Of a DNA stretch of 64,000 bases, positions 11,571 through 64,000 are shown piece after piece; positions within the stretch are counted from its first letter, which is position 1, and each line of letters starts with the position of its first letter. Location of the stretch: positions 558,001 through 622,000 of the forward strand of contig JBAIAA010000784.1 of assembly GCA_037893245.1 (NCBI GenBank). The letters are read 5' to 3'. Source of the DNA: Crossaster papposus (Eukaryota; Echinodermata; Asteroidea; Velatida; Solasteridae). The notes under the pieces are model-generated. The model searched no databases. It saw only the letters and a program-made list of their open reading frames with translations, and was not told the origin of the DNA. A program made the position numbers and the translations under genes.

Positions 11571-12467
11571 TTTATTAAATGTGAATAGCAGTGAAGCAAA
11601 AATACCTAGTTAGCAAAGCGAGGTTTTGGTCCTCGGACCTCTGGGTTATGGGCCCATCACGCTCCCGCTGCACCACTCTGCGTAACTATTTGTAATGAAA
11701 ATGAAATCACTTTCAAGGAAATAATTATCCTGAGCAGACCGAGGTTGTGGTCAACCAAACTCTCGGGTACTGACCAAGAAAGTGTCTACTTTGTCACTCC
11801 GAGTCGAGTACCTCATGTCATACCAAAAACTTGTTAGCAGAGCGAGGTTTCGATCCTCGGACCTCTGGGTTATGGGCCCAGCACGCTTCAACTGCGCCAC
11901 TATGCCTCATGTAAATTTAGAAAATGCAAACAAAATTAAAGCAGACATTCTAAAAACATTCTACAATATTTATTAAATGTGAATAGCAGTGAAGCAAAAA
12001 TAACTAGTTAGCAAAGCGAGGTTTTGGTCCTCGGACCTCTGGGCTATGGGCCCATCACGCTCCCGCTGCACTACTCTGCGTAACTATTTTTAATGAAAAT
12101 GAAATCCCTATCAAATACAAAATTATCCTGAGCAGACCGAGGTTGTGATCATCCGAAAATGCAAACAAAATGAAAGCAGACATTCTAAAAACATTCTACA
12201 ATATTTATTAAATGTGAATAGCAGTGAAGCAAAAATACCTCGTTAGCAAAGCGAGGTTTTGGTCTTCGGACCTCTGGGTTATGGGCCCATCACGCTCCCA
12301 CAGCACCACTCTGCGTAACTATTTGTAATGAAAATGAAATCACTTTCAAGAAAATAATTTTCCTGAGCAGACCGAGGTTGTGGTCAACCAAACTCTCGGG
12401 TACTGACCAAGAAAGTGTCTACTTTGTCACTCCGAGTCGAGTACCTCATGTCATACCAAAAACTTGT

Positions 12468-12539
12468 TAGCAGAGCGAGGTTTCGATCCTCGGACCTCTG
12501 GGCTATGGGCCCATCACGCTCCCGCTGCACTACTCTGCG
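12468..12539 (-). tRNA. Hybrid m2/m3 initiator-tRNA module, best-preserved fold in the window
   Basis: Recombination inside the module joined an m2 3' half (T-loop ATCGAAA, 3' acceptor CTCTGCT) to an m3 5' half (CGCAGAG, D-loop AGCGGGA). The acceptor pairs at six of seven positions, the D stem GTGC/GCGT pairs with wobble, the anticodon loop is CCCATAG, T-arm CGAGG/CCTCG is perfect, and the A and B boxes are intact. Further copies are at 14931-15002, 18599-18670 and 23231-23302. Of all modules seen, this is closest to a functional initiator tRNA gene. Confidence 0.65.
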
Positions 12540-13094
12540 TAACTATTTTTAATGAAAATGAAATCCCTATCAAATACAAAATTATCCTGAGCAGACCGAG
12601 GTTGTGATCATCCGAACTCTCGGTTACTGACCAAGAAAGGGTCTACTTTGTCACTCTGAGTCGAGTACTTCAAGTCATACCAAAAACTTATTAGCAGCAG
12701 AACGAGGTTTTGATCCTCGGCACTCTGGGTTATAGGCCCAGCAAGCTTCCACTGCGCCACCATGCCTCATGTAAATTTAGAAAAACAACAAACAAAATAA
12801 AAGCAGACATTCAAAAAACATTCTAAAATAATTATTAAATTTGAATAACAGTGAAGCAAAAATACCTCTTTAGCAGAGCGAGGTTTCGGTCCTCGGGCCT
12901 CTGGGTTATGGGCCCATCACGATCCCACTGCACCACTCTGTGTAACTATTTGTAATGAAAATGAAATCACTTTCAAAGAAATAATTATCCTGAACAGACC
13001 GAGGTTGTGGTCAACCAAACTCTCGGGTACTGACCAAGAAAGTGTCTACTTTGTCACTCCGAGTCGAGTACCTCATGTCATACCAAAAACTTGT

Positions 13095-13166
13095 TAGCAG
13101 AGCGAGGTTTCGATCCTCGGACCTCTGGGTTACGGGCCCAGCACGCTTCAACTGCGCCACTATGCC
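13095..13166 (-). tRNA. m2 module with CGT anticodon
   Basis: Plus-strand GGGTTACGGGCCC gives loop CCCGTAA, anticodon CGT instead of CAT; the rest of the fold is unchanged. The same variant is at 15558, 16359, 19226, 20430, 55493, 56697 and 59503 (each 72 nt). It is confined to the two edge blocks and absent from the homogeneous core. Confidence 0.6.
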
Positions 13167-16100
13167 TCATGTAAATTTAGAAAATGAAAACAAAATGAAA
13201 GCAGACATTCTAAAAACATTCTACAATATTTATTAAATGTGAATAGCAGTGAAGCAAAAATACCTAGTTAGCAAAGCGAGGTTTTGGTCCTCGGACCTCT
13301 GGGCTATGGGCCCATCACGGTCCCGCTGCACTACTCTGCGTAACTATTTTTAATGAAAATGAAATCCCTATCAAATACAAAATTATCCTGAGAAGACCGA
13401 GGTTGTGATCATCCGAACTCTCGGTTACTGACCAAGAAAGGGTCTACTTTGTCACTCTGAGTCGAGTACTTCAAGTCATACCAAAAACTTATTAGCAGCA
13501 GAACGAGGTTTTGATCCTCGGCACTCTGGGTTATAGGCCCAGCAAGCTTCCACTGCGCCACCATGCCTCATGTAAATTTAGAAAAACAACAAACAAAATA
13601 AAAGCAGACTTTCTAAAAACATTCTAAAATAATTATTAAATTTGAATAACAGTGAAGCAAAAATACCTCTTTAGCAGAGCGAGGTTTCGGTCCTCGGGCC
13701 TCTGGGTTATGGGCCCATCACGATCCCACTGCACCACTCTGCGTAACTATTTGTAATGAAAATGACATCACTTTCAAGGAAATAATTATCCTGAGCAGAC
13801 CGAGGTTGTGGTCAACCAAACTCTCGATACTGACCAAGAAAGTGTCTACTTTGTCACTCTGAGTCGAGTACTTCAAGTCATACCAAAAACTTATTAGCAG
13901 CAGAACGAGGTTTTGATCCTCGGCACTCTGGGTTATAGGCCCAGCAAGCTTCCACTGCGCCACCATGCCTCATGTAAATTTAGAAAAACAACAAACAAAA
14001 TAAAAGCAGACATTCAAAAAACATTCTAAAATAATTATTAAATTTGAATAACAGTAAAGCAAAAATACCTCTTTAGCAGAGCGAGGTTTCGGTCCTCGGG
14101 CCTCTGGGTTATGGGCCCATCACGATCCCACTGCACCACTCTGCGTAACTATTTGTAATGAAAATGAAATCACTTTCAAGGAAATAATTATCCTGAGCAG
14201 ACCGAGGTTGTGGTCAACCAAACTCTCGGGTACTGACCAAGAAAGTGTCTACTTTGTCACTCCGAGTCGAGTACCTCATGTCATACCAAAAACTTGTTAG
14301 CAGAGCGAGGTTTCGATCCTCGGACCTCTGGGTTATGGGCCCAGCACGCTTCAACTGCGCCACTATGCCTCATGTAAATTTAGAAAATGCAAACAAAATT
14401 AAAGCAGACATTCTAAAAACATTCTACAATATTTATTAAATGTGAATAGCAGTGAAGCAAAAATAACTAGTTAGCAAAGCGAGGTTTTCGTCCTCGGACC
14501 TCTGGGCTATGGGCCCATCACGCTCCCGCTGCACTACTCTGCGTAACTATTTTTAATGAAAATGAAATCCCTATCAAATACAAAATTATCCTGAGCAGAC
14601 CGAGGTTGTGATCATCCGAAAATGCAAACAAAATGAAAGCAGACATTCTAAAAACATTCTACAATATTTATTAAATGTGAATAGCAGTGAAGCAAAAATA
14701 CCTCGTTAGCAAAGCGAGGTTTTGGTCTTCGGACCTCTGGGTTATGGGCCCATCACGCTCCCACAGCACCACTCTGCGTAACTATTTGTAATGAAAATGA
14801 AATCACTTTCAAGAAAATAATTTTCCTGAGCAGACCGAGGTTGTGGTCAACCAAACTCTCGGGTACTGACCAAGAAAGTGTCTACTTTGTCACTCCGAGT
14901 CGAGTACCTCATGTCATACCAAAAACTTGTTAGCAGAGCGAGGTTTCGATCCTCGGACCTCTGGGCTATGGGCCCATCACGCTCCCGCTGCACTACTCTG
15001 CGTAACTATTTTTAATGAAAATGAAATCCCTATCAAATACAAAATTATCCTGAGCAGACCGAGGTTGTGATCATCCGAACTCTCGGTTACTGACCAAGAA
15101 AGGGTCTACTTTGTCACTCTGAGTCGAGTACTTCAAGTCATACCAAAAACTTATTAGCAGCAGAACGAGGTTTTGATCCTCGGCACTCTGGGTTATAGGC
15201 CCAGCAAGCTTCCACTGCGCCACCATGCCTCATGTAAATTTAGAAAAACAACAAACAAAATAAAAGCAGACATTCAAAAAACATTCTAAAATAATTATTA
15301 AATTTGAATAACAGTGAAGCAAAAATACCTCTTTAGCAGAGCGAGGTTTCGGTCCTCGGGCCTCTGGGTTATGGGCCCATCACGATCCCACTGCACCACT
15401 CTGTGTAACTATTTGTAATGAAAATGAAATCACTTTCAAAGAAATAATTATCCTGAACAGACCGAGGTTGTGGTCAACCAAACTCTCGGGTACTGACCAA
15501 GAAAGTGTCTACTTTGTCACTCCGAGTCGAGTACCTCATGTCATACCAAAAACTTGTTAGCAGAGCGAGGTTTCGATCCTCGGACCTCTGGGTTACGGGC
15601 CCAGCACGCTTCAACTGCGCCACTATGCCTCATGTAAATTTAGAAAATGCAAACAAAATGAAAGCAGACATTCTAAAAACATTCTACAATATTTATTAAA
15701 TGTGAATAGCAGTGAAGCAAAAATACCTAGTTAGCAAAGCGAGGTTTTGGTCCTCGGACCTCTGGGCTATGGGCCCATCACGCTCCCGCTGCACTACTCT
15801 GCGTAACTATTTTTAATGAAAATGAAATCCCTATCAAATACAAAATTATCCTGAGCAGACCGAGGTTGTGATCATCCGAACTCTCGGTTACTGACCAAGA
15901 AAGGGTCTACTTTGTCACTCTGAGTCGAGTACTTCAAGTCATACCAAAAACTTATTAGCAGCAGAACGAGGTTTTGATCCTCGGCACTCTGGGTTATAGG
16001 CCCAGCAAGCTTCCACTGCGCCACCATGCCTCATGTAAATTTAGAAAAACAACAAACAAAATAAAAGCAGACATTCAAAAAACATTCTAAAATAATTATT

Positions 16101-19100
16101 AAATTTGAATAACAGTGAAGCAAAAATACCTCTTTAGCAGAGCGAGGTTTCGGTCCTCGGGCCTCTGGGTTATGGGCCCATCACGATCCCACTGCACCAC
16201 TCTGTGTAACTATTTGTAATGAAAATGAAATCACTTTCAAAGAAATAATTATCCTGAACAGACCGAGGTTGTGGTCAACCAAACTCTCGGGTACTGACCA
16301 AGAAAGTGTCTACTTTGTCACTCCGAGTCGAGTACCTCATGTCATACCAAAAACTTGTTAGCAGAGCGAGGTTTCGATCCTCGGACCTCTGGGTTACGGG
16401 CCCAGCACGCTTCAACTGCGCCACTATGCCTCATGTAAATTTAGAAAATGCAAACAAAATGAAAGCAGACATTCTAAAAACATTCTACAATATTTATTAA
16501 ATGTGAATAGCAGTGAAGCAAAAATACCTAGTTAGCAAAGCGAGGTTTTGGTCCTCGGACCTCTGGGCTATGGGCCCATCACGCTCCCGCTGCACTACTC
16601 TGCGTAACTATTTTTAATGAAAATGAAATCCCTATCAAATACAAAATTATCCTGAGAAGACCGAGGTTGTGATCATCCGAACTCTCGGTTACTGACCAAG
16701 AAAGGGTCTACTTTGTCACTCTGAGTCGAGTACTTCAAGTCATACCAAAAACTTATTAGCAGCAGAACGAGGTTTTGATCCTCGGCACTCTGGGTTATAG
16801 GCCCAGCAAGCTTCCACTGCGCCACCATGCCTCATGTAAATTTAGAAAAACAACAAACAAAATAAAAGCAGACTTTCTAAAAACATTCTAAAATAATTAT
16901 TAAATTTGAATAACAGTGAAGCAAAAATACCTCTTTAGCAGAGCGAGGTTTCGGTCCTCGGGCCTCTGGGTTATGGGCCCATCACGATCCCACTGCACCA
17001 CTCTGCGTAACTATTTGTAATGAAAATGACATCACTTTCAAGGAAATAATTATCCTGAGCAGACCGAGGTTGTGGTCAACCAAACTCTCGGGTACTGACC
17101 AAGAAAGTGTCTACTTTGTCACTCTGAGTCGAGTACTTCAAGTCATACCAAAAACTTATTAGCAGCAGAACGAGGTTTTGATCCTCGGCACTCTGGGTTA
17201 TAGGCCCAGCAAGCTTCCACTGCGCCACCATGCCTCATGTAAATTTAGAAAAACAACAAACAAAATAAAAGCAGACATTCAAAAAACATTCTAAAATAAT
17301 TATTAAATTTGAATAACAGTAAAGCAAAAATACCTCTTTAGCAGAGCGAGGTTTCGGTCCTCGGGCCTCTGGGTTATGGGCCCATCACGATCCCACTGCA
17401 CCACTCTGCGTAACTATTTGTAATGAAAATGACATCACTTTCAAGGAAATAATTATCCTGAGCAGACCGAGGTTGTGGTCAACCAAACTCTCGGGTACTG
17501 ACCAAGAAAGTGTCTACTTTGTCACTCTGAGTCGAGTACTTCAAGTCATACCAAAAACTTATTAGCAGCAGAACGAGGTTTTGATCCTCGGCACTCTGGG
17601 TTATAGGCCCAGCAAGCTTCCACTGCGCCACCATGCCTCATGTAAATTTAGAAAAACAACAAACAAAATAAAAGCAGACATTCAAAAAACATTCTAAAAT
17701 AATTATTAAATTTGAATAACAGTAAAGCAAAAATACCTCTTTAGCAGAGCGAGGTTTCGGTCCTCGGGCCTCTGGGTTATGGGCCCATCACGATCCCACT
17801 GCACCACTCTGCGTAACTATTTGTAATGAAAATGAAATCACTTTCAAGGAAATAATTATCCTGAGCAGACCGAGGTTGTGGTCAACCAAACTCTCGGGTA
17901 CTGACCAAGAAAGTGTCTACTTTGTCACTCCGAGTCGAGTACCTCATGTCATACCAAAAACTTGTTAGCAGAGCGAGGTTTCGATCCTCGGACCTCTGGG
18001 TTATGGGCCCAGCACGCTTCAACTGCGCCACTATGCCTCATGTAAATTTAGAAAATGCAAACAAAATTAAAGCAGACATTCTAAAAACATTCTACAATAT
18101 TTATTAAATGTGAATAGCAGTGAAGCAAAAATAACTAGTTAGCAAAGCGAGGTTTTGGTCCTCGGACCTCTGGGCTATGGGCCCATCACGCTCCCGCTGC
18201 ACTACTCTGCGTAACTATTTTTAATGAAAATGAAATCCCTATCAAATACAAAATTATCCTGAGCAGACCGAGGTTGTGATCATCCGAAAATGCAAACAAA
18301 ATGAAAGCAGACATTCTAAAAACATTCTACAATATTTATTAAATGTGAATAGCAGTGAAGCAAAAATACCTCGTTTGCAAAGCGAGGTTTTGGTCTTCGG
18401 ACCTCTGGGTTATGGGCCCATCACGCTCCCACAGCACCACTCTGCGTAACTATTTGTAATGAAAATGAAATCACTTTCAAGAAAATAATTTTCCTGAGCA
18501 GACCGAGGTTGTGGTCAACCAAACTCTCGGGTACTGACCAAGAAAGTGTCTACTTTGTCACTCCGAGTCGAGTACCTCATGTCATACCAAAAACTTGTTA
18601 GCAGAGCGAGGTTTCGATCCTCGGACCTCTGGGCTATGGGCCCATCACGCTCCCGCTGCACTACTCTGCGTAACTATTTTTAATGAAAATGAAATCCCTA
18701 TCAAATACAAAATTATCCTGAGCAGACCGAGGTTGTGATCATCCGAACTCTCGGTTACTGACCAAGAAAGGGTCTACTTTGTCACTCTGAGTCGAGTACT
18801 TCAAGTCATACCAAAAACTTATTAGCAGCAGAACGAGGTTTTGATCCTCGGCACTCTGGGTTATAGGCCCAGCAAGCTTCCACTGCGCCACCATGCCTCA
18901 TGTAAATTTAGAAAAACAACAAACAAAATAAAAGCAGACATTCAAAAAACATTCTAAAATAATTATTAAATTTGAATAACAGTGAAGCAAAAATACCTCT
19001 TTAGCAGAGCGAGGTTTCGGTCCTCGGGCCTCTGGGTTATGGGCCCATCACGATCCCACTGCACCACTCTGTGTAACTATTTGTAATGAAAATGAAATCA

Positions 19101-22100
19101 CTTTCAAAGAAATAATTATCCTGAACAGACCGAGGTTGTGGTCAACCAAACTCTCGGGTACTGACCAAGAAAGTGTCTACTTTGTCACTCCGAGTCGAGT
19201 ACCTCATGTCATACCAAAAACTTGTTAGCAGAGCGAGGTTTCGATCCTCGGACCTCTGGGTTACGGGCCCAGCACGCTTCAACTGCGCCACTATGCCTCA
19301 TGTAAATTTAGAAAATGCAAACAAAATGAAAGCAGACATTCTAAAAACATTCTACAATATTTATTAAATGTGAATAGCAGTGAAGCAAAAATACCTAGTT
19401 AGCAAAGCGAGGTTTTGGTCCTCGGACCTCTGGGCTATGGGCCCATCACGCTCCCGCTGCACTACTCTGCGTAACTATTTTTAATGAAAATGAAATCCCT
19501 ATCAAATACAAAATTATCCTGAGAAGACCGAGGTTGTGATCATCCGAACTCTCGGTTACTGACCAAGAAAGGGTCTACTTTGTCACTCTGAGTCGAGTAC
19601 TTCAAGTCATACCAAAAACTTATTAGCAGCAGAACGAGGTTTTGATCCTCGGCACTCTGGGTTATAGGCCCAGCAAGCTTCCACTGCGCCACCATGCCTC
19701 ATGTAAATTTAGAAAAACAACAAACAAAATAAAAGCAGACTTTCTAAAAACATTCTAAAATAATTATTAAATTTGAATAACAGTGAAGCAAAAATACCTC
19801 TTTAGCAGAGCGAGGTTTCGGTCCTCGGGCCTCTGGGTTATGGGCCCATCACGATCCCACTGCACCACTCTGCGTAACTATTTGTAATGAAAATGACATC
19901 ACTTTCAAGGAAATAATTATCCTGAGCAGACCGAGGTTGTGGTCAACCAAACTCTCGGGTACTGACCAAGAAAGTGTCTACTTTGTCACTCTGAGTCGAG
20001 TACTTCAAGTCATACCAAAAACTTATTAGCAGCAGAACGAGGTTTTGATCCTCGGCACTCTGGGTTATAGGCCCAGCAAGCTTCCACTGCGCCACCATGC
20101 CTCATGTAAATTTAGAAAAACAACAAACAAAATAAAAGCAGACATTCAAAAAACATTCTAAAATAATTATTAAATTTGAATAACAGTAAAGCAAAAATAC
20201 CTCTTTAGCAGAGCGAGGTTTCGGTCCTCGGGCCTCTGGGTTATGGGCCCATCACGATCCCACTGCACCACTCTGCGTAACTATTTGTAATGAAAATGAA
20301 ATCACTTTCAAGGAAATAATTATCCTGAGCAGACCGAGGTTGTGGTCAACCAAACTCTCGGGTACTGACCAAGAAAGTGTCTACTTTGTCACTCCGAGTC
20401 GAGTACCTCATGTCATACCAAAAACTTGTTAGCAGAGCGAGGTTTCGATCCTCGGACCTCTGGGTTACGGGCCCAGCACGCTTCAACTGCGCCACTATGC
20501 CTCATGTAAATTTAGAAAATGAAAACAAAATGAAAGCAGACATTCTAAAAACATTCTACAATATTTATTAAATGTGAATAGCAGTGAAGCAAAAATACCT
20601 AGTTAGCAAAGCGAGGTTTTGGTCCTCGGACCTCTGGGCTATGGGCCCATCACGCTCCCGCTGCACTACTCTGCGTAACTATTTTTAATGAAAATGAAAT
20701 CCCTATCAAATACAAAATTATCCTGAGCAGACCTAGGTTGTGATCATCCGAACTCTCGGTTACTGACCAAGAAAGGGTCTACTTTGTCACTCTGAGTCGA
20801 GTACTTCAAGTCATACCAAAAACTTATTAGCAGCAGAACGAGGTTTTGATCCTCGGCACTCTGGGTTATAGGCCCAGCAAGCTTCCACTGCGCCACCATG
20901 CCTCATGTAAATTTAGAAAAACAACAAACAAAATAAAAGCAGACATTCTAAAAACATTCTAAAATAATTATTAAATTTGAATAACAGTGAAGCAAAAATA
21001 CCTCTTTAGCAGAGCGAGGTTTCGGTCCTCGGGCCTCTGGGTTATGGGCCCATCACGATCCCACTGCACCACTCTGCGTAACTATTTGTAATGAAAATGA
21101 AATCACTTTCAAGGAAATAATTATCCTGAGCAGACAGAGGTTGTGGTCAACCAAACTCTCGGGTACTGACCAAGAAAGTGTCTACTTTGTCACTCCGAGT
21201 CGAGTACCTCATGTCATACCAAAAACTTGTTAGCAGAGCGAGGTTTCGATCCTCGGACCTCTGGGTTATGGGCCCAGCACGCTTCAACTGCGCCACTATG
21301 CCTCATGTAAATTTAGAAAATGCAAACAAAATGAAAGCAGACATTCTAAAAACATTCTACAATATTTATTAAATGTGAATAGCAGTGAAACAAAAATACC
21401 TAGTTAGCAAAGCGAGGTTTTGGTCCTCGGACCTCTGGGCTATGGGCCCATCACGCTCCCGCTGCACTACTCTGCGTAACTATTTTTAATGAAAATGAAA
21501 TTCCTATCAAATACAAAATTATCCTGAGCAGACCGAGGTTGTGATCATCCGAACTCTCGGTTACTGACCAAGAAAGGGTCTACTTTGTCACTCTGAGTCG
21601 AGTACTTCAAGTCATACCAAAAACTTATTAGCAGCAGAACGAGGTTTTGATCCTCGGCACTCTGGGTTATAGGCCCAGCAAGCTTCCACTGCGCCACCAT
21701 GCCTCATGTAAATTTAGAAAAACAACAAACAAAATAAAAGCAGACATTCTAAAAACATTCTAAAATAATTATTAAATTTGAATAACAGTGAAGCAAAAAT
21801 ACCTCTTTAGCAGAGCGAGGTTTCGGTCCTCGGGCCTCTGGGTTATGGGCCCATCACGATCCCACTGCACCACTCTGCGTAACTATTTGTAATGAAAATG
21901 AAATCACTTTCAAGGAAATAATTATCCTGAGCAGACCGAGGTTGTGGTCAACCAAACTCTCGGGTACTGACCAAGAAAGTGTCTACTTTGTCACTCCGAG
22001 TCGAGTACCTCATGTCATACCAAAAACTTGTTAGCAGAGCGAGGTTTCGATCCTCGGACCTCTGGGTTATGGGCCCAGCACGCTTCAACTGCGCCACTAT

Positions 22101-25100
22101 GCCTCATGTAAATTTAGAAAATGCAAACAAAATGAAAGCAGACATTCTAAAAACATTCTACAATATTTATTAAATGTGAATAGCAGTGAAGCAAAAATAC
22201 CTAGTTAGCAAAGCGAGGTTTTGGTCCTCGGACCTCTGGGCTATGGGCCCATCACGCTCCCGCTGCACTACTCTGCGTAACTATTTTTAATGAAAATGAA
22301 ATCCCTATCAAATACAAAATTATCCTGAGCAGACCGAGGTTGTGATCATCCGAACTCTCGGTTACTGACCAAGAAAGGGTCTACTTTGTCACTCTGAGTC
22401 GAGTACTTCAAGTCATACCAAAAACTTATTAGCAGCAGAACGAGGTTTTGATCCTCGGCACTCTGGGTTATAGGCCCAGCAAGCTTCCACTGCGCCACCA
22501 TGCCTCATGTAAATTTAGAAAAACAACAAACAAAATAAAAGCAGACATTCTAAAAACATTCTAAAATAATTATTAAATTTGAATAACAGTGAAGCAAAAA
22601 TACCTCTTTAGCAGAGCGAGGTTTCGGTCCTCGGGCCTCTGGGTTATGGGCCCATCACGATCCCACTGCACCACTCTGCGTAACTATTTGTAATGAAAAT
22701 GAAATCACTTTCAAGGAAATAATTATCCTGAGCAGACCGAGGTTGTGGTCAACCAAACTCTCAGGTACTGACCAAGAAAGTGTCTACTTTGTCACTCCGA
22801 GTCGAGTACCTCATGTCATACCAAAAACTTGTTAGCAGAGCGAGGTTTCGATCCTCGGACCTCTGGGTTATGGGCCCAGCACGCTTCAACTGCGCCACTA
22901 TGCCTCATGTAAATTTAGAAAATGCAAACAAAATGAAAGCAGACATTCTAAAAACATTCTACAATATTTATTAAATGTGAATAGCAGTGAAGCAAAAATA
23001 CCTCGTTAGCAAAGCGAGGTTTTGGTCTTCGGACCTCTGGGTTATGGGCCCATCACGCTCCCACAGCACCACTCTGCGTAACTATTTGTAATGAAAATGA
23101 AATCACTTTCAAGAAAATAATTTTCCTGAGCAGACCGAGGTTGTGGTCAACCAAACTCTCGGGTACTGACCAAGAAAGTGTCTACTTTGTCACTCCGAGT
23201 CGAGTACCTCATGTCATACCAAAAACTTGTTAGCAGAGCGAGGTTTCGATCCTCGGACCTCTGGGCTATGGGCCCATCACGCTCCCGCTGCACTACTCTG
23301 CGTAACTATTTTTAATGAAAATGAAATCCCTATCAAATACAAAATTATCCTGAGCAGACCGAGGTTGTGATCATCCGAACTCTCGGTTACTGACCAAGAA
23401 AGGGTCTACTTTGTCACTCTGAGTCGAGTACTTCAAGTCATACCAAAAACTTATTAGCAGCAGAACGAGGTTTTGATCCTCGGCACTCTGGGTTATAGGC
23501 CCAGCAAGCTTCCACTGCGCCACCATGCCTCATGTAAATTTAGAAAAACAACAAACAAAATAAAAGCAGACATTCTAAAAACATTCTAAAATAATTATTA
23601 AATTTGAATAACAGTGAAGCAAAAATACCTCTTTAGCAGAGCGAGGTTTCGGTCCTCGGGCCTCTGGGTTATGGGCCCATCACGATCCCACTGCACCACT
23701 CTGCGTAACTATTTGTAATGAAAATGAAATCACTTTCAAGGAAATAATTATCCTGAGCAGACAGAGGTTGTGGTCAACCAAACTCTCGGGTACTGACCAA
23801 GAAAGTGTCTACTTTGTCACTCCGAGTCGAGTACCTCATGTCATACCAAAAACTTGTTAGCAGAGCGAGGTTTCGATCCTCGGACCTCTGGGTTATGGGC
23901 CCAGCACGCTTCAACTGCGCCACTATGCCTCATGTAAATTTAGAAAATGCAAACAAAATGAAAGCAGACATTCTAAAAACATTCTACAATATTTATTAAA
24001 TGTGAATAGCAGTGAAACAAAAATACCTAGTTAGCAAAGCGAGGTTTTGGTCCTCGGACCTCTGGGCTATGGGCCCATCACGCTCCCGCTGCACTACTCT
24101 GCGTAACTATTTTTAATGAAAATGAAATTCCTATCAAATACAAAATTATCCTGAGCAGACCGAGGTTGTGATCATCCGAACTCTCGGTTACTGACCAAGA
24201 AAGGGTCTACTTTGTCACTCTGAGTCGAGTACTTCAAGTCATACCAAAAACTTATTAGCAGCAGAACGAGGTTTTGATCCTCGGCACTCTGGGTTATAGG
24301 CCCAGCAAGCTTCCACTGCGCCACCATGCCTCATGTAAATTTAGAAAAACAACAAACAAAATAAAAGCAGACATTCTAAAAACATTCTAAAATAATTATT
24401 AAATTTGAATAACAGTGAAGCAAAAATACCTCTTTAGCAGAGCGAGGTTTCGGTCCTCGGGCCTCTGGGTTATGGGCCCATCACGATCCCACTGCACCAC
24501 TCTGCGTAACTATTTGTAATGAAAATGAAATCACTTTCAAGGAAATAATTATCCTGAGCAGACCGAGGTTGTGGTCAACCAAACTCTCGGGTACTGACCA
24601 AGAAAGTGTCTACTTTGTCACTCCGAGTCGAGTACCTCATGTCATACCAAAAACTTGTTAGCAGAGCGAGGTTTCGATCCTCGGACCTCTGGGTTATGGG
24701 CCCAGCACGCTTCAACTGCGCCACTATGCCTCATGTAAATTTAGAAAATGCAAACAAAATGAAAGCAGACATTCTAAAAACATTCTACAATATTTATTAA
24801 ATGTGAATAGCAGTGAAGCAAAAATACCTAGTTAGCAAAGCGAGGTTTTGGTCCTCGGACCTCTGGGCTATGGGCCCATCACGCTCCCGCTGCACTACTC
24901 TGCGTAACTATTTTTAATGAAAATGAAATCCCTATCAAATACAAAATTATCCTGAGCAGACCGAGGTTGTGATCATCCGAACTCTCGGTTACTGACCAAG
25001 AAAGGGTCTACTTTGTCACTCTGAGTCGAGTACTTCAAGTCATACCAAAAACTTATTAGCAGCAGAACGAGGTTTTGATCCTCGGCACTCTGGGTTATAG

Positions 25101-28100
25101 GCCCAGCAAGCTTCCACTGCGCCACCATGCCTCATGTAAATTTAGAAAAACAACAAACAAAATAAAAGCAGACATTCTAAAAACATTCTAAAATAATTAT
25201 TAAATTTGAATAACAGTGAAGCAAAAATACCTCTTTAGCAGAGCGAGGTTTCGGTCCTCGGGCCTCTGGGTTATGGGCCCATCACGATCCCACTGCACCA
25301 CTCTGCGTAACTATTTGTAATGAAAATGAAATCACTTTCAAGGAAATAATTATCCTGAGCAGACCGAGGTTGTGGTCAACCAAACTCTCAGGTACTGACC
25401 AAGAAAGTGTCTACTTTGTCACTCCGAGTCGAGTACCTCATGTCATACCAAAAACTTGTTAGCAGAGCGAGGTTTCGATCCTCGGACCTCTGGGTTATGG
25501 GCCCAGCACGCTTCAACTGCGCCACTATGCCTCATGTAAATTTAGAAAATGCAAACAAAATGAAAGCAGACATTCTAAAAACATTCTACAATATTTATTA
25601 AATGTGAATAGCAGTGAAGCAAAAATACCTAGTTAGCAAAGCGAGGTTTTGGTCCTCGGACCTCTGGGCTATGGGCCCATCACGCTCCCGCTGCACTACT
25701 CTGCATAACTATTTTTAATGAAAATGAAATCCCTATCAAATACAAAATTATCCTGAGCAGACCGAGGTTGTGATCATCCGAACTCTCGGTTACTGACCAA
25801 GAAAGGGTCTACTTTGTCACTCTGAGTCAAGTACTTCAAGTCATACCAAAAACTTATTAGCAGCAGAACGAGGTTTTGATCCTCGGCACTCTGGGTTATA
25901 GGCCCAGCAAGCTTCCACTGCGCCACCATGCCTCATGTAAATTTAGAAAAACAACAAACAAAATAAAAGCAGACATTCTAAAAACATTCTAAAATAATTA
26001 TTAAATTTGAATAACAGTGAAGCAAAAATACCTCTTTAGCAGAGCGAGGTTTCGGTCCTCGGGCCTCTGGGTTATGGGCCCATCACGATCCCACTGCGCC
26101 ACTCTGCGTAACTATTTGTAATGAAAATGAAATCACTTTCAAGGAAATAATTATCCTGAGCAGACCGAGGTTGTGGTCAACCAAACTCTCGGGTACTGAC
26201 CAAGAAAGTGTCTACTTTGTCACTCCGAGTCGAGTACCTCATGTCATACCAAAAACTTGTTAGCAGAGCGAGGTTTCGATCCTCGGACCTCTGGGTTATG
26301 GGCCCAGCACGCTTCAACTGCGCCACTATGCCTCATGTAAATTTAGAAAATGCAAACAAAATGAAAGCAGACATTCTAAAAACATTCTACAATATTTATT
26401 AAATGTGAATAGCAGTGAAGCAAAAATACCTAGTTAGCAAAGCGAGGTTTTGGTCCTCGGACCTCTGGGCTATGGGCCCATCACGCTCCCGCTGCACTAC
26501 TCTGCATAACTATTTTTAATGAAAATGAAATCCCTATCAAATACAAAATTATCCTGAGCAGACCGAGGTTGTGATCATCCGAACTCTCGGTTACTGACCA
26601 AGAAAGGGTCTACTTTGTCACTCTGAGTCGAGTACTTCAAGTCATACCAAAAACTTATTAGCAGCAGAACGAGGTTTTGATCCTCGGCACTCTGGGTTAT
26701 AGGTCCAGCAAGCTTCCACTGCGCCACCATGCCTCATGTAAATTTAGAAAAACAACAAACAAAATAAAAGCAGACATTCTAAAAACATTCTAAAATAATT
26801 ATTAAATTTGAATAACAGTGAAGCAAAAATACCTCTTTAGCAGAGCGAGGTTTCGGTCCTCGGGCCTCTGGGTTATGGGCCCATCACGATCCCACTGCAC
26901 CACTCTGCGTAACTATTTGTAATGAAAATGAAATCACTTTCAAGGAAATAATTATCCTGAGCAGACCGAGGTTGTGGTCAACCAAACTCTCGGGTACTGA
27001 CCAAGAAAGTGTCTACTTTGTCACTCCGAGTCGAGTACCTCATGTCATACCAAAAACTTGTTAGCAGAGCGAGGTTTCGATCCTCGGACCTCTGGGTTAT
27101 GGGCCCAGCACGCTTCAACTGCGCCACTATGCCTCATGTAAATTTAGAAAATGCAAACAAAATGAAAGCAGACATTCTAAAAACATTCTACAATATTTAT
27201 TAAATGTGAATAGCAGTGAAGCAAAAATACCTAGTTAGCAAAGCGAGGTTTTGGTCCTCGGACCTCTGGGCTATGGGCCCATCACGCTCCCGCTGCACTA
27301 CTCTGCGTAACTATTTTTAATGAAAATGAAATCCCTATCAAATACAAAATTATCCTGAGCAGACCGAGGTTGTGATCATCCGAACTCTCGGTTACTGACC
27401 AAGAAAGGGTCTACTTTGTCACTCTGAGTCGAGTACTTCAAGTCATACCAAAAACTTATTAGCAGCAGAACGATGTTTTGATCCTCGGCACTCTGCGTTA
27501 TAGGCCCAGCAAGCTTCCACTGCGCCACCATGCCTCATGTAAATTTAGAAAAACAACAAACAAAATAAAAGCAGACATTCTAAAAACATTCTAAAATAAT
27601 TATTAAATTTGAATAACAGTGAAGCAAAAATACCTCTTTAGCAGAGCGAGGTTTCGGTCCTCGGGCCTCTGGGTTATGGGCCCATCACGATCCCACTGCA
27701 CCACTCTGCGTAACTATTTGTAATGAAAATGAAATCACTTTCAAGGAAATAATTATCCTGAGCAGACCGAGGTTGTGGTCAACCAAACTCTCGGGTACTG
27801 ACCAAGAAAGTGTCTACTTTGTCACTCCGAGTCGAGTACCTCATGTCATACCAAAAACTTGTTAGCAGAGCGAGGTTTCGATCCTCGGACCTCTGGGTTA
27901 TGGGCCCAGCACGCTTCAACTGCGCCACTATGCCTCATGTAAATTTAGAAAATGCAAACAAAATGAAAGCAGACATTCTAAAAACATTCTACAATATTTA
28001 TTAAATGTGAATAGCAGTGAAGCAAAAATACCTAGTTAGCAAAGCGAGGTTTTGGTCCTCGGACCTCTGGGCTATGGGCCCATCACGCTCCCGCTGCACT

Positions 28101-30255: not shown

Positions 30256-30260
30256 AAAAA
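30256..30260 (-). terminator. Pol III terminator-like T5 after m2
   Basis: Plus-strand AAAAA (TTTTT on the transcribed strand) five bases past the module 3' end, present in essentially every unit. Confidence 0.55.
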
Positions 30261-48056: not shown

Positions 48057-48121
48057 TAGCAAAGCGAGGTTTTGGTCCTCGGACCTCTGGGCCCATCACG
48101 CTCCCGCTGCACTACTCTGCG
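48057..48121 (-). pseudogene. m3 module with 7-base anticodon deletion
   Basis: CTATGGG is lost between GGG repeats, leaving a 65-nt module. The same lesion occurs in the module at 49652-49716. Confidence 0.7.
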
Positions 48122-49651: not shown

Positions 49652-49716
49652 TAGCAAAGCGAGGTTTTGGTCCTCGGACCTCTGGGCCCATCACGCTCCC
49701 GCTGCACTACTCTGCG
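49652..49716 (-). pseudogene. m3 module with 7-base anticodon deletion, second copy
   Basis: Same deletion as at 48057, two units downstream. It may have been copied by unequal exchange rather than arisen independently. Confidence 0.7.
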
Positions 49717-52700: not shown

Positions 52701-52799
52701 ACCTCTGGGTTATAGGCCCAGCACGCTTCAACTGCGCCACTATGCCTCATGTAAATTTAGAAAATGCAAACAAAATGAAAGCAGACATTCTAAAAACAT

Positions 52800-54650: not shown

Positions 54651-57600
54651 CTGAGTCGAGTACTTCAAGTCATACCAAAAACTTATTAGCAGCAGAACGA
54701 GGTTTTGATCCTCGGCACTCTGGGTTATAGGCCCAGCAAGCTTCCACTGCGCCACCATGCCTCATGTAAATTTAGAAAAACAACAAACGAAATAAAAGCA
54801 GACATTCTAAAAACATTCTAAAATAATTATTAAATTTAAATAACAGTGAAGCAAAAATACCTCTTTAGCAGAGCGAGGTTTTGGTCCTCGGGCCTCTGGG
54901 TTATGGGCCCATCACGATCCCACTGCACAACTCTGCGTAGCTATTTGTAATGAAAATGAAATCACTTTCAAGGAAATAATTATCCTGAGCAGACCGAGGT
55001 TGTGGTCAACCAAACTCTCGGGTACTGACCAAGAAAGTGTCTACTTTGTCACTCTGAGTCGAGTACTTCAAGTCATACCAAAAACTTATTAGCAGCAGAA
55101 CGAGGTTTTGATCCTTGGCACTCTGGGTTATAGGCCCAGCAAGCTTCCACTGCGCCACCATGCCTCATGTAAATTTAGAAAAACAACAAACAAAATAAAA
55201 GCAGACATTCAAAAAACATTCTAAAATAATTATTAAATTTGAATAACAGTGAAGCAAAAATACCTCTTTAGCAGAGCGAGGTTTCGGTCCTCGGGCCTCT
55301 GGGTTATGGGCCCATCACGATCACACTGCACCACTCTGCGTAACTATTTGTAATGAAAATGAAATCACTTTCAAAGAAATAATTATCCTGAACAGACCGA
55401 GGTTGTGGTCAACCAAACTCTCGGGTACTGACCAAGAAAGTGTCTACTTTGTCACTCCGAGTCGAGTACCTCATGTCATACCAAAAACTTGTTAGCAGAG
55501 CGAGGTTTCGATCCTCGGACCTCTGGGTTACGGGCCCAGCACGCTTCAACTGCGCCACTATGCCTCATGTAAATTTAGAAAATGCAAACAAAATGAAAGC
55601 AGACATTCTAAAAACATTCTACAATATTTATTAAATGTGAATAGCAGTGAAGCAAAAATACCTAGTTAGCAAAGCGAGGTTTTGGTCCTCGGACCTCTGG
55701 GCTATGGGCCCATCACGCTCCCGCTGCACTACTCTGCGTAACTATTTTTAATGAAAATGAAATCCCTATCAAATACAAAATTATCCTGAGAAGACCGAGG
55801 TTGTGATCATCCGAACTCTCGGTTACTGACCAAGAAAGGGTCTACTTTGTCACTCTGAGTCGAGTACTTCAAGTCATACCAAAAACTTATTAGCAGCAGA
55901 ACGAGGTGTTGATCCTCGGCACTCTGGGTTATAGGCCTAGCAAGCTTCCACTGCGCCACCATGCCTCATGTAAATTTAGAAAAACAACAAACAAAATAAA
56001 AGCAGACTTTCTAAAAACATTCTAAAATAATTATTAAATTTGAATAACAGTGAAGCAAAAATACCTCTTTAGCAGAGCGAGGTTTCGGTCCTCGGGCCTC
56101 TGGGTTATGGGCCCATCACGATCCCACTGCACCACTCTGCGTAACTATTTGTAATGAAAAAGACATCACTTTCAAGGAAATAATTATCCTGAGCAGACCG
56201 AGGTTGTGGTCAACCAAACTCTCGGGTACTGACCAAGAAAGTGTCTACTTTGTCACTCTGAGTCGAGTACTTCAAGTCATACCAAAAACTTATTAGCAGC
56301 AGAACGAGGTTTTGATCCTCGGCACTCTGGGTTATAGGCCCAGCAAGCTTCCACTGCGCCACCATGCCTCATGTAAATTTAGAAAAACAACAAACAAAAT
56401 AAAAGCACACATTCAAAAAACATTCTAAAATAATTATTAAATTTGAATAACAGTAAAGCAAAAATACCTCTTTAGCAGAGCGAGGTTTCGGTCCTCGGGC
56501 CTCTGGGTTATGGGCCCATCACGATCCCACTGCACCACTCTGCGTAACTATTTGTAATGAAAATGAAATCACTTTCAAGGAAATAATTATCCTGAGCAGA
56601 CCGAGGTTGTGGTCAACCAAACTCTCGGGTACTGACCAAGAAAGTGTCTACTTTGTCACTCCGAGTCGAGTACCTCATGTCATACCAAAAACTTGTTAGC
56701 AGAGCGAGGTTTCGATCCTCGGACCTCTGGGTTACGGGCCCAGCACGCTTCAACTGCGCCACTATGCCTCATGTAAATTTAGAAAATGCAAACAAAATGA
56801 AAGCAGACATTCTAAAAACATTCTACAATATTTATTAAATGTGAATAGCAGTGAAGCAAAAATACCTAGTTAGCAAAGCGAGGTTTTGGTCCTCGGACCT
56901 CTGGGCTATGGGCCCATCACGCTCCCGCTGCACTACTCTGCGTAACTATTTTTAATGAAAATGAAATCCCTATCAAATACAAAATTATCCTGAGCAGACC
57001 GAGGTTGTGATCATCCGAACTCTCGGTTACTGACCAAGAAAGGGTCTACTTTGTCACTCTGAGTCGAGTACTTCAAGTCATACCAAAAACTTATTAGCAG
57101 CAGAACGAGGTTTTGATCCTCGGCACTCTGGGTTATAGGCCCAGCAAGCTTCCACTGCGCCACCATGCCTCATGTAAATTTAGAAAAACAACAAACAAAA
57201 TAAAAGCAGACATTCTAAAACTATTCTAAAATAATTATTAAATTTGAATAACAGTGAAGCAAAAATACCTCTTTAGCAGAGCGAGGTTTCGGTCCTCGGG
57301 CCTCTGGGTTATGGGCCCATCACGATCCCACTGCACCACTCTGCGTAACTATTTGTAATGAAAATGAAATCACTTTCAAGGAAATAATTATCTTGAGCAG
57401 ACAGAGGTTGTGGTCAACCAAACTCTCGAGTACTGACCAAGAAAGTGTCTACTTTGTCACTCCGAGTCGAGTACCTCATGTCATACCAAAAACTTGTTAG
57501 CAGAGCGAGGTTTCGATCCTCGGACCTCTGGGTTATGGGCCCAGCACGCTTCAACTGCGCCACTATGCCTCATGTAAATTTAGAAAATGCAAACAAAATG

Positions 57601-60445
57601 AAAGCAGACATTCTAAAAACATTCTACAATATTTATTAAATGTGAATAGCAGTGAAGCAAAAATACCTAGTTAGCAAAGCGAGGTTTTGGTCCTCGGACC
57701 TCTGGGCTATGGGCCCATCACGCTCCCGCTGCACTACTCTGCGTAACTATTTTTAATGAAAATGAAATCCCTATCAAATACAAAATTATCCTGAGCAGAC
57801 CGAGGTTGTGATCATCCGAACTCTCGGTTACTGACCAAGAAAGGGTCTACTTTGTCACTCTGAGTCGAGTACTTCAAGTCATACCAAAAACTTATTAGCA
57901 GCAGAACGAGGTTTTGATCCTCGGCACTCTGGGTTATAGGCCCAGCAAGCTTCCACTGCGCCACCATGCCTCATGTAAATTTAGAAAAACAACAAACAAA
58001 ATAAAAGCAGACATTCTAAAAACATTCTAAAATAATTATTAAATTTGAATAACAGTGAAGCAAAAATACCTCTTTAGCAGAGCGAGGTTTCGGTCCTCGG
58101 GCCTCTGGGTTATGGGCCCATCACGATCCCACTGCACCACTCTGCGTAACTATTTGTAATGAAAATGAAATCACTTTCAAGGAAATAATTATCCTGAGCA
58201 GACCGAGGTTGTGGTCAACCAAACTCTCGGGTACTGACCAAGAAAGTGTCTACTTTGTCACTCCGAGTCGAGTACCTCATGTCATACCAAAAACTTGTTA
58301 GCAGAGCGAGGTTTCGATCCTCGGACCTCTGGGTTATGGGCCCAGCACGCTTCAACTGCGCCACTATGCCTCATGTAAATTTAGAAAATGCAAACAAAAT
58401 GAAAGCAGACATTCTAAAAACATTCTACAATATTTATTAAATGTGAATAGCAGTGAAGCAAAAATACCTAGTTAGCAAAGCGAGGTTTTGGTCCTCGGAC
58501 CTCTGGGCTATGGGCCCATCACGCTCCCGCTGCACTACTCTGCGTAACTATTTTTAATGAAAATGAAATCCCTATCAAATACAAAATTATCCTGAGCAGA
58601 CCGAGGTTGTGATCATCCGAACTCTCGGTTACTGACCAAGAAAGGGTCTACTTTGTCACTCTGAGTCGAGTACTTCAAGTCATACCAAAAACTTATTAGC
58701 AGCAGAACGAGGTGTTGATCCTCGGCACTCTGGGTTATAGGCCTAGCAAGCTTCCACTGCGCCACCATGCCTCATGTAAATTTAGAAAAACAACAAACAA
58801 AATAAAAGCAGACTTTCTAAAAACATTCTAAAATAATTATTAAATTTGAATAACAGTGAAGCAAAAATACCTCTTTAGCAGAGCGAGGTTTCGGTCCTCG
58901 GGCCTCTGGGTTATGGGCCCATCACGATCCCACTGCACCACTCTGCGTAACTATTTGTAATGAAAAAGACATCACTTTCAAGGAAATAATTATCCTGAGC
59001 AGACCGAGGTTGTGGTCAACCAAACTCTCGGGTACTGACCAAGAAAGTGTCTACTTTGTCACTCTGAGTCGAGTACTTCAAGTCATACCAAAAACTTATT
59101 AGCAGCAGAACGAGGTTTTGATCCTCGGCACTCTGGGTTATAGGCCCAGCAAGCTTCCACTGCGCCACCATGCCTCATGTAAATTTAGAAAAACAACAAA
59201 CAAAATAAAAGCACACATTCAAAAAACATTCTAAAATAATTATTAAATTTGAATAACAGTAAAGCAAAAATACCTCTTTAGCAGAGCGAGGTTTCGGTCC
59301 TCGGGCCTCTGGGTTATGGGCCCATCACGATCCCACTGCACCACTCTGCGTAACTATTTGTAATGAAAATGAAATCACTTTCAAGGAAATAATTATCCTG
59401 AGCAGACCGAGGTTGTGGTCAACCAAACTCTCGGGTACTGACCAAGAAAGTGTCTACTTTGTCACTCCGAGTCGAGTACCTCATGTCATACCAAAAACTT
59501 GTTAGCAGAGCGAGGTTTCGATCCTCGGACCTCTGGGTTACGGGCCCAGCACGCTTCAACTGCGCCACTATGCCTCATGTAAATTTAGAAAATGCAAACA
59601 AAATGAAAGCAGACATTCTAAAAACATTCTACAATATTTATTAAATGTGAATAGCAGTGAAGCAAAAATACCTAGTTAGCAAAGCGAGGTTTTGGTCCTC
59701 GGACCTCTGGGCTATGGGCCCATCACGCTCCCGCTGCACTACTCTGCGTAACTATTTTTAATGAAAATGAAATCCCTATCAAATACAAAATTATCCTGAG
59801 CAGACCGAGGTTGTGATCATCCGAACTCTCGGTTACTGACCAAGAAAGGGTCTATTTTGTCACTCTGAGTCGAGTACTTCAAGTCATACCAAAAACTTAT
59901 TAGCAGCAGAACGAGGTTTTGATCCTCGGCACTCTGGGTTATAGGCCCAGCAAGCTTCCACTGCGCCACCATGCCTCATGTAAATTTAGAAAAACAACAA
60001 ACAAAATAAAAGCAGACATTCTAAAACTATTCTAAAATAATTATTAAATTTGAATAACAGTGAAGCAAAAATACCTCTTTAGCAGAGCGAGGTTTCGGTC
60101 CTCGGGCCTCTGGGTTATGGGCCCATCACGATCCCACTGCACCACTCTGCGTAACTATTTGTAATGAAAATGAAATCACTTTCAAGGAAATAATTATCTT
60201 GAGCAGACAGAGGTTGTGGTCAACCAAACTCTCGAGTACTGACCAAGAAAGTGTCTACTTTGTCACTCCGAGTCGAGTACCTCATGTCATACCAAAAACT
60301 TGTTAGCAGAGCGAGGTTTCGATCCTCGGACCTCTGGGTTATGGGCCCAGCACGCTTCAACTGCGCCACTATGCCTCATGTAAATTTAGAAAATGCAAAC
60401 AAAATGAAAGCAGACATTCTAAAAACATTCTACAATATTTATTAA
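54651..60445. repeat. Right edge block with 1204-bp spacings and a 2.8-kb duplication
   Basis: Shares CGT anticodons, CAGTAAAGC and the shortened ATTCAAAAAACATTC with the 11.6-20.6 kb block. Private variants repeat about 2807 bp apart: GAGGTGTTGATCC at 55905 and 58711, GCACACATTC at 56405 and 59211, CTAAAACTATTC at 57213 and 60021. This marks a recent duplication of that segment. Confidence 0.8.
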
Positions 60446-63400
60446 ATGTGAATAGCAGTGAAGCAAAAATACCTAGTTAGCAAAGCGAGGTTTTGGTCCT
60501 CGGACCTCTGGGCTATGGGCCCATCACGCTCCCGCTGCACTACTCTGCGTAACTATTTTTAATGAAAATGAAATCCCTATCAAATACAAAATTATCCTGA
60601 GCAGACCGAGGTTGTGATCATCCGAACTCTCGGTTACTGACCAAGAAAGGGTCTACTTTGTCACTCTGAGTCGAGTACTTCAAGTCATACCAAAAACTTA
60701 TTAGCAGCAGAACGAGGTTTTGATCCTCGGCACTCTGGGTTATAGGCCCAGCAAGCTTCCACTGCGCCACCATGCCTCATGTAAATTTAGAAAAACAACA
60801 AACAAAATAAAAGCAGACATTCTAAAAACATTCTAAAATAATTATTAAATTTGAATAACAGTGAAGCAAAAATACCTCTTTAGCAGAGCGAGGTTTCGGT
60901 CCTCGGGCCTCTGGGTTATGGGCCCATCACGATCCCACTGCACCACTCTGCGTAACTATTTGTAATGAAAATGAAATCACTTTCAAGGAAATAATTATCC
61001 TGAGCAGACCGAGGTTGTGGTCAACCAAACTCTCGGGTACTGACCAAGAAAGTGTCTACTTTGTCACTCCGAGTCGAGTACCTCATGTCATACCAAAAAC
61101 TTGTTAGCAGAGCGAGGTTTCGATCCTCGGACCTCTGGGTTATGGGCCCAGCACGCTTCAACTGCGCCACTATGCCTCATGTAAATTTAGAAAATGCAAA
61201 CAAAATGAAAGCAGACATTCTAAAAACATTCTACAATATTTATTAAATGTGAATAGCAGTGAAGCAAAAATACCTAGTTAGCAAAGCGAGGTTTTGGTCC
61301 TCGGACCTCTGGGCTATGGGCCCATCACGCTCCCGCTGCACTACTCTGCGTAACTATTTTTAATGAAAATGAAATCCCTATCAAATACAAAATTATCCTG
61401 AGCAGACCGAGGTTGTGATCATCCGAACTCTCGGTTACTGACCAAGAAAGGGTCTACTTTGTCACTCTGAGTCGAGTACTTCAAGTCATACCAAAAACTT
61501 ATTAGCAGCAGAACGAGGTTTTGATCCTCGGCACTCTGGGTTATAGGCCCAGCAAGCTTCCACTGCGCAACCATGCCTCATGTAAATTTAGAAAAACAAC
61601 AAACAAAATAAAAGCAGACATTCTAAAAACATTCTAAAATAATTATTAAATTTGAATAACAGTGAAGCAAAAATACCTCTTTAGCAGAGCGAGGTTTCGG
61701 TCCTCGGGCCTCTGGGTTATGGGCCCATCACGATCCCACTGCACCACTCTGCGTAACTATTTGTAATGAAAATGAAATCACTTTCAAGGAAATAATTATC
61801 CTGAGCAGACCGAGGTTGTGGTCAACCAAACTCTCGGGTACTGACCAAGAAAGTGTCTACTTTGTCACTCCGAGTCGAGTACCTCATGTCATACCAAAAA
61901 CTTGTTAGCAGAGCGAGGTTTCGATCCTCGGACCTCTGGGTTATGGGCCCAGCACGCTTCAACTGCGCCACTATGCCTCATGTAAATTTAGAAAATGCAA
62001 ACAAAATGAAAGCAGACATTCTAAAAACATTCTACAATATTTATTAAATGTGAATAGCAGTGAAGCAAAAATACCTAGTTAGCAAAGCGAGGTTTTGGTC
62101 CTCGGACCTCTGGGCTATGGGCCCATCACGCTCCCGCTGCACTACTCTGCGTAACTATTTTTAATGAAAATGAAATCCCTATCAAATACAACATTATCCT
62201 GAGCAGACCGAGGTTGTGATCATCCGAACTCTCGGTTACTGACCAAGAAAGGGTCTACTTTGTCACTCTGAGTCGAGTACTTCAAGTCATACCAAAAACT
62301 TATTAGCAGCAGAACGAGGTTTTGATCCTCGGCACTCTGGGTTATAGGCCCAGCAAGCTTCCACTGCGCCACCATGCCTCATGTAAATTTAAAAAAACAA
62401 CAAACAAAATAAAAGCAGACATTCTAAAAACATTCTAAAATAATTATTAAATTTGAATAACAGTGAAGCAAAAATACCTCTTTAGCAGAGCGAGGTTTCG
62501 GTCCTCGGGCCTCTGGGTTATGGGCCCATCACGATCCCACTGCACCACTCTGCGTAACTATTTGTAATGAAAATGAAATCACTTTCAAGGAAATAATTAT
62601 CCTGAGCAGACCGAGGTTGTGGTCAACCAAACTCTCGGGTACTGACCAAGAAAGTGTCTACTTTGTCACTCCGAGTCGAGTACCTCATGTCATACCAAAA
62701 ACTTGTTAGCAGAGCGAGGTTTCGATCCTCGGACCTCTGGGTTATGGGCCCAGCACGCTTCAACTGCACCACTATGCCTCATGTAATTTAGAAAATGCAA
62801 ACAAAATGAAAGCAGACATTCTAAAAACATTCTACAATATTTATTAAATGTGAATAGCAGTGAAGCAAAAATACCTAGTTAGCAAAGCGAGGTTTTGGTC
62901 CTCGGACCTCTGGGCTATGGGCCCATCACGCTCCCGCTGCACTACTCTGCGTAACTATTTTTAATGAAAATGAAATCCCAATCAAATACAACATTATCCT
63001 GAGCAGACCGAGGTTGTGATCATCCGAACTCTCGGTTACTGACCAAGAAAGGGTCTACTTTGTCACTCTGAGTCGAGTAAATCAAGTCATACCAAAAACT
63101 TATTAGCAGCAGAACGAGGTTTTGATCCTCGGCACTCTGGGTTATAGGCCCAGCAAGCTTCCACTGCGCCACCATGCCTCATGTAAATTTAGAAAAACAA
63201 CAAACAAAATAAAAGCAGACATTCTAAAAACATTCTAAAATAATTATTAAATTTGAATAACAGTGAAGCAAAAATACCTCTTTAGCAGAGCGAGGTTTCG
63301 GTCCTCGGGCCTCTGGGTTATGGGCCCATCACGATCCCACTGCACCACTCTGCGTAACTATTTGTAATGAAAATGAAATCACTTTCAAGGAAATAATTAT

Positions 63401-64000
63401 CCTGAGCAGACCGAGGTTGTGGTCAACCAAACTCTCGGGTACTGACCAAGAAAGTGTCTACTTTGTCACTCCGAGTCGAGTACCTCATGTCATACCAAAA
63501 ACTTGTTAGCAGAGCGAGGTTTCGATCCTCGGACCTCTGGGTTATGGGCCCAGCACGCTTCAACTGCGCCACTATGCCTCATGTAAATTTAGAAAATGCA
63601 AACAAAATGAAAGCAGACATTCTAAAAACATTCTACAATATTTATTAAATGTGAATAGCAGTGAAGCAAAAATACCTAGTTAGCAAAGCGAGGTTTTGGT
63701 CCTCGGACCTCTGGGCTATGGGCCCATCACGCTCCCGCTGCACTACTCTGCGTAACTATTTTTAATGAAAATGAAATCCCTATCAAATACAAAATTATCC
63801 TGAGCAGACCGAGGTTGTGATCATCCGAACTCTCGGTTACTGACCAAGAAAGGGTCTACTTTGTCACTCTGAGTCGAGTACTTCAAGTCATACCAAAAAC
63901 TTATAAGCAGCAGAACGAGGTTTTGATCCTCGGCACTCTGGGTTATAGGCCCAGCAAGCTTCCACTGCGCCACCATGCCTCATGTAAATTTAGAAAAACA
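60446..64000. repeat. Terminal 801-bp units running out of the window
   Basis: Standard dimers with m2 modules at 60304, 61105, 61906, about 62707 and 63507. The copy near 62707 has TGCACC for TGCGCC at the D stem. Just beyond its 5' acceptor end, one A is missing from the spacer (ATGTAATTTAG for ATGTAAATTTAG). Confidence 0.85.

Follow-up and report, generated by a model that had tools for sequence, protein, structure and literature searches.

Are the tRNA-like sequences that fill a long tandem array still genes, or have they become satellite DNA? This question is raised by a 64,000-bp stretch of the genome of the starfish Crossaster papposus (assembly GCA_037893245.1, 1.023 Gb in 1841 contigs), positions 558,001 to 622,000 of contig JBAIAA010000784.1 (C784, 1,141,936 bp), hereafter the window, in which 72-nt modules resembling the initiator methionine tRNA (iMet) gene are repeated on one strand. 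A first-pass annotation, made from the letters alone, had described it as a megasatellite built almost entirely from iMet genes, which began as an iMet gene cluster and was captured by unequal exchange. In this study we found that the modules of the window are not working initiator tRNA genes, and we consider it very probable that the satellite family to which they belong grew from an iMet gene cluster, with the window representing a decayed lineage. The family offers a view of a satellite caught forming from an essential gene, with the gene cluster, gene-perfect arrays, crossover hybrids and decayed repeats lying side by side. These coexisting stages make it possible to test the route from gene cluster to satellite DNA, as well as the way in which a cell handles initiator-like units in their thousands, to which RNA polymerase III (Pol III) may be drawn.

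The window array and its modules

The window is one tandem array, at 1-2317 and 11571-64000, split by a single insertion at 2318-11570; the extent from 11571 to 64000 given earlier was confirmed, and the array also fills the first 2317 positions, beyond the insertion. A census by nhmmer, with a profile built from four modules and with scores above 60 bits taken as strong, identified 270 strong modules, every one on the minus strand (11 in 1-2317 and 259 in 11571-64000), in line with the 260-270 minus-strand copies first estimated, as well as 144 weaker matches. Two gaps of 322 bp each hold one further module of 57.8 bits. The strong modules fall into four types of near-equal number (T1, 69 plus one shortened copy; T2, 66; T4, 67; T3, 67), which prevail in the order T1-T2-T4-T3 within an 801-bp higher-order repeat; 26 neighbour pairs depart from this order, two of them solely through the shortened copy. 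This copy, of 65 nt, was omitted from all per-position counts, leaving 269 full-length modules. Of 50 canonical units cut out of the window, 48 measure exactly 801 bp, and a 24-nt marker of the array occurs 133 times, compared to a maximum of zero in any of 100 shuffles. The features of the array, with one canonical unit as an example, are as follows (all on the minus strand, save the insertion, to which no strand is assigned):

1..2317, minus: array, left part, 11 strong modules; continues past the left end of the window
2318..11570, no strand: transposon insertion (9.25 kb); rejoining its flanks restores the unit save one extra T
11571..64000, minus: array, main part, 259 strong modules; continues past the right end of the window
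24435..25235, minus: example canonical 801-bp higher-order unit, T1-L1-T2-L2-T4-L1'-T3-L2'
24422..24426, minus: TTTTT, 8 nt downstream of T1
24435..24506, minus: module T1, A type; consensus with 7 differences from the intact gene, C1xU72 mismatch
24557..24623, minus: decayed third module in linker L1, 15.1 bits
24649..24653, minus: TTTTT, 5 nt downstream of T2
24659..24730, minus: module T2, B type; consensus nearest to the gene (A1G, G5T, G17T)
24820..24824, minus: TTTTT, 8 nt downstream of T4
24833..24904, minus: module T4, A type; consensus with 10 differences from the gene
24955..25023, minus: decayed module in linker L1', 27.6 bits
25047..25051, minus: TTTTT, 8 nt downstream of T3
25060..25131, minus: module T3, B type; anticodon TAT, consensus with 10 differences from the gene

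A degraded tRNA lies in the linker leading from an A-type to a B-type module, which in most units is 152 or 155 bp long. Its ungapped match to T2 extends over 66 nt in L1 and 69 nt in L1', and was equalled by none of 2000 dinucleotide shuffles, while its match to T1 was equalled by 1/2000 and 0/2000; the other linker, compared with the tRNA module, scored no better than shuffles. Of the 144 weaker profile matches, 137 fall at this position. Since each half-unit thus carries a decayed third module, the half-unit is a three-module cluster, and the four modules per 801 bp that had been counted before hold for the strong copies, with two decayed ones besides making a total of six. Among the matches listed, the decayed modules of related arrays had no T-run downstream.

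Judged by general tRNA models, many of the strong modules would pass as genes, with 195 window matches scoring at or above the Rfam tRNA gathering threshold (top score 51.3 bits) and ARAGORN calling 69 tRNAs. Their derivation from an initiator tRNA, as first proposed, is borne out by the T2 consensus, which is only 3 of 72 positions away from the intact initiator gene of this genome, and several of the initiator features reported earlier do persist: the anticodon stem has three G:C pairs in 258/269 modules, and A54 and A60 of the T-loop, a hallmark of functional eukaryotic initiator tRNA, are kept in 268/269. The A1:U72 pair, on the other hand, is kept in none of the 269, where pair 1:72 is GU (133), CU (131), UU (4) or CA (1), and at least one acceptor-stem mismatch is present in every one. 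The CCCATAA anticodon loop that had been described is likewise only partly right: CAT is found in 193/269 modules, and the anticodon depends on type, with TAT in 68 (all 67 T3 copies and one T2) and CGT in eight, all of them T2. Because A1:U72 and a fully paired acceptor stem are missing throughout, and one type in four reads TAT, the modules of the window are not initiator genes; the initiator hallmarks occur together in 0/270. The description of the array as built from iMet genes therefore fails for the window, although it fits the family. RNAs of the window type should not initiate translation, and the array should not supply initiator tRNA. With so many modules accepted by Rfam and ARAGORN and none hallmark-complete, annotation pipelines will be misled into overcounting initiator genes.

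Transcription is a separate matter. A TTTTT run lies 5 or 8 nt downstream of 267/270 modules, whereas such a run follows within 14 nt at only 8.7% of unit positions; of the seven T5 runs that each unit has on the module strand, three do not follow a module, and T1 and T4 mostly carry C at position 55. The A- and B-box-like sequences, which were judged by eye against the box consensus, and the retained T5 runs make Pol III transcription of the array plausible, and the modules may be transcribed as short non-translating RNAs.

The modules diverge like the linkers, and hence evolve as satellite DNA. The consensuses of the two half-units differ at 15/144 module and 25/254 linker positions (Fisher p 0.86), and diversity (pi) across the 50 units is 0.0072 for the modules, against 0.0045 for the linkers; greater conservation of modules than of linkers was sought in the window and not found, modules being if anything more variable. 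As in satellites generally, i.e. long head-to-tail arrays homogenised by exchange, unit length is constant and nearer units are more alike, the mean difference between units being 0.40% at less than 1 kb apart and 0.68% at more than 24 kb. An irregular block is repeated at offsets of 2463, 6131 and 10763 bases; of its 21 hundred-base windows, 20, 20 and 15, respectively, match there at no less than 97%. Such a pattern is what local exchange and the copying of segments leave behind, and no selection on the modules is visible.

Intact genes and crossover hybrids in the family

The window is a small part of the family. The B/L1 half-unit junction has 23,261 matches in the genome within two mismatches (13610+9651; control, 0), which at ~400 bp per half-unit would amount to ~9.3 Mb of satellite, or ~0.9% of the assembly. 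The 5' halves of A-type modules have 15,329 matches within two mismatches and those of the gene and B-type modules 12,633, two sets that may overlap slightly, with T3 too diverged for either. On C784 itself, four of seven samples were pure array (at 530, 640, 760 and 860 kb, two per strand), and those at 300, 450 and 980 kb were not. Matches lie on at least 12 contigs, and all seven stretches fetched around further genome matches belong to arrays, one of them (L014) including an array border. Exact-pattern scans of viral and prokaryote collections identified no related arrays.

The intact initiator gene was found in two settings. Contig C885 carries five exact copies of one 72-nt gene, spaced 0.8 to 5.6 kb apart, four of which share a similar upstream stretch, with partial tRNA-like pieces lying among them. 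The same 72-mer has exactly 1,281 copies in the genome (41+1240; reversed control, 0), all of them elsewhere than in the window and all with A1:U72, of which at least 5 lie in the ordinary gene cluster; among the matches listed for this 1,281-copy gene, all are on contig C146. Six stretches of C146 (L046-L051) yielded 261 modules, of which 27 are exact gene copies and 89 carry all tested hallmarks, and 241 are followed within 30 nt by at least four consecutive T. Elsewhere the full set of hallmarks was absent, i.e. in 0/251 modules of the higher-order-repeat-like loci L009-L015, 0/38 of C79:948-956 kb and 0/33 of two other C146 stretches. The consensus of the C146 BB modules is the intact gene, from which the window types differ by 3 (T2), 7 (T1), 10 (T3) and 10 (T4) letters, and Rfam gives 58.7 bits both to the five genes on C885 and to six exact copies in L048. 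Lower variability of modules than of flanks was sought in the C146 sample and was not found, with pi for module, upstream and downstream sequence, respectively, of 0.058, 0.0745 and 0.0237 (BB), 0.051, 0.045 and 0.063 (AA), and 0.061, 0.067 and 0.057 (BA).

Evidence for exchange within the gene came from modules with hybrid flanks, of which there are 71 BA and 11 AB among 586 modules of 17 loci (four modules were not classifiable on one side). No homology was found between A and B flanks beyond the gene, over 45 bp on each side, and the trailers of A-type, B-type and C885 copies are distinct. In C146, 49 of 70 BA-flanked modules carry 5' B and 3' A markers (one has unclear markers), both AB-flanked modules carry 5' A and 3' B markers, and BA modules accompany the 174-bp steps. 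Since internal markers match the hybrid flanks and the gene is the only stretch shared, these crossovers took place inside the 72-bp gene.

Three arrays on C146, some 290 and 380 kb apart, have borders (L014, L054, L055) with a common outer flank, which is 99.75% identical over 2401 bp between L054 and L055 and 99.4% identical over the 361 bp compared between L014 and L054, and which in L054 encodes an integrase of the long terminal repeat (LTR) retrotransposon type; one insertion was thus probably copied together with the array. Array strand switches with little or no spacer were seen in L009 (~3095-3110) and L014 (~5310-5334). A solitary satellite copy of 582 bp (L056:2792-3373) starts and ends at nearly one point of a module and has ATGG on both sides, and could be a reinserted circle, or the flank match could be due to chance. 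The mitochondrial COX1, taken from the 16,330-bp contig C1841 and read with code 9, has its best match among 34 records compared in one named for the sea star Meridiastra gunnii (97.3% identity), C1841 and C784 being taken to stem from one organism. Contig C8 has COX1 frames at two places that the standard code leaves open, and may derive from a bacterium, either a symbiont or a contaminant.

Origin of the satellite

In the mechanism that we propose, the tRNA gene would have provided the shared homology for unequal exchange, which would have amplified steps of 174 bp and 224 bp into half-units of ~400 bp and these into 801-bp units; the units would then have spread, or been duplicated in large segments. 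The origin suggested by the first-pass annotation, capture of an iMet gene cluster by unequal exchange, is well supported by the gene-identical B-module consensus of C146 and by the intragenic hybrids. Several points weigh against it. The direction from gene to satellite is deduced from the shared consensus, and a partial tRNA-like piece near one C885 gene matches satellite modules, so that the C885 cluster is itself not free of pieces. Of the C146 BA-flanked modules, 20/70 carry B markers at both ends, which places those exchanges near or beyond the 3' marker, and the four AB-flanked modules on C79 have A markers at either end. Variation in the C146 BB modules is lowest in the 3' acceptor, the rest of the D region, the T loop, the 3' anticodon stem and the A-box region, which could hint at constraint. 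Finally, a single assembly underlies all counts, and one of its contigs seems to be bacterial.

In a rival reading, selection keeps the arrays as a working reservoir of initiator genes, e.g. for egg production, with the window as a pseudogene fringe. The 1,281 exact copies, the hallmark-complete third of the C146 sample and the T-runs downstream of its modules all speak for such a reservoir; we nevertheless regard it as unlikely, because the sampled C146 modules vary no less than their own flanks, a conventional iMet cluster with similar upstream stretches exists separately on C885, and no copy in the window has the hallmarks together. A related idea, speculative and rather unlikely, is that the satellite is both heterochromatin and a living initiator gene bank, in which more than 1,200 gene-perfect copies would be transcribed, perhaps in oocytes, and coding copies would be lost and regained through intragenic crossovers. 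If this were true, satellite turnover would set initiator dosage.

Descent of the unit from a tRNA-bearing mobile element that was later arrayed in tandem, i.e. a short interspersed nuclear element (SINE) or a Helenus-type terminal-repeat retrotransposon in miniature (TRIM), appears very improbable. In the published description, Helenus TRIM LTRs carry tRNA-like sequence, tandem LTR-11_DR arrays are reported, and animal Helenus elements make 4-bp target duplications (PMC10886601), which the ATGG flanks of the solitary copy recall. A 4-bp match in one copy is weak, however, and the satellite unit lacks both a purine run of at least 10 and an iMet-type primer binding site (PBSs of other tRNAs were not tested), shows no sign of an LTR pair, and has unrelated A and B flanks; the seven fetched loci were, without exception, parts of arrays. 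A SINE whose head merely resembles iMet, which the first-pass annotation had named among the findings that would speak against its own reading, was not encountered, although the search for dispersed copies was not exhaustive. False expansion of a small cluster during assembly deserves mention, as long near-identical repeats are hard to assemble, but is extremely improbable: the irregular units and strand switches (L009, L014) are unlike a simple echo, divergence is graded with distance, mobile elements lie at array borders, and matches are spread over at least 12 contigs. Growth of the family from an iMet gene cluster remains the reading that we favor.

The insertion in the window contains an uninterrupted 1041-aa reading frame of a long interspersed nuclear element (LINE) with endonuclease and reverse transcriptase domains (3220-6345). 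The LINE-bearing part is flanked by a GC-rich 63-bp direct repeat, 98% identical (2320-2382 and 6972-7034), inside which lie 125-nt inverted repeats of 96% identity (2682-2806 and 6759-6883). Inverted repeats of 255 bp, 100% complementary (10027-10281 and 11317-11571), end at the array border, and the element that they bound is probably young. Two GC-rich frames, at 8015-8560 and 9333-10016, matched nothing in Pfam at E 0.001. A pattern made for the LINE matched 74 stretches of prokaryote contigs, none of which was confirmed as a relative. Relatives of the LINE and of the integrase point to an animal source and no further.

Comparison with known systems

No initiator-tRNA satellite was found in the open-licence literature that we searched. 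The 3.18-kb tRNA repeat of Xenopus includes an initiator gene. Tandem repeats with tRNA-like, Pol III-type sequence are also described from amphibians, namely Cynops PolIII/TAN, Xenopus OAX/satellite I and Rana/polIII (PMC10702118). Like the window array, these consist of tandem units with tRNA-like sequence, but they have, in that account, one such segment per unit (PMC10702118), whereas the unit described here has six modules of one identified tRNA, four of them recognisable and two decayed; the survival of gene-identical copies in sister arrays sets the present satellite further apart from them. The SINE-derived satellites of squamates are similarly tandem and can include tRNA-derived sequence, and are reported to come from parts of dispersed SINEs (PMC10702118), whereas our search, which was not exhaustive, found no SINE source.

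In Entamoeba, too, tRNA genes are arrayed in tandem and take up a considerable share of the genome (more than 10% there), with 25 array units of up to five tRNA genes each holding almost all of its tRNA genes, as described in PMC2652664. The arrays of Crossaster differ in that a single tRNA species is involved, wholly decayed in the window, and in that satellite-style higher-order repeats are formed. Helenus TRIMs and the zebrafish LTR-11_DR arrays resemble the present case in that tRNA-like sequence was amplified partly in tandem, but Helenus is portrayed as an LTR retrotransposon with a PBS and a polypurine tract (PMC10886601); both tests were negative here for the tract and an iMet-type PBS (other tRNAs not tested). 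In Nematostella, expansion of tRNA genes and pseudogenes to more than 17000 reaches a similar scale of copy number, mostly as heterogeneous tRNA pairs according to PMC2888827, in contrast to the one initiator family found here. To our knowledge, three things are new in Crossaster papposus: the origin from a single initiator tRNA, a higher-order unit of six modules, and a genome in which decayed arrays, hybrids from crossovers and gene-perfect arrays are found alongside the genes themselves.

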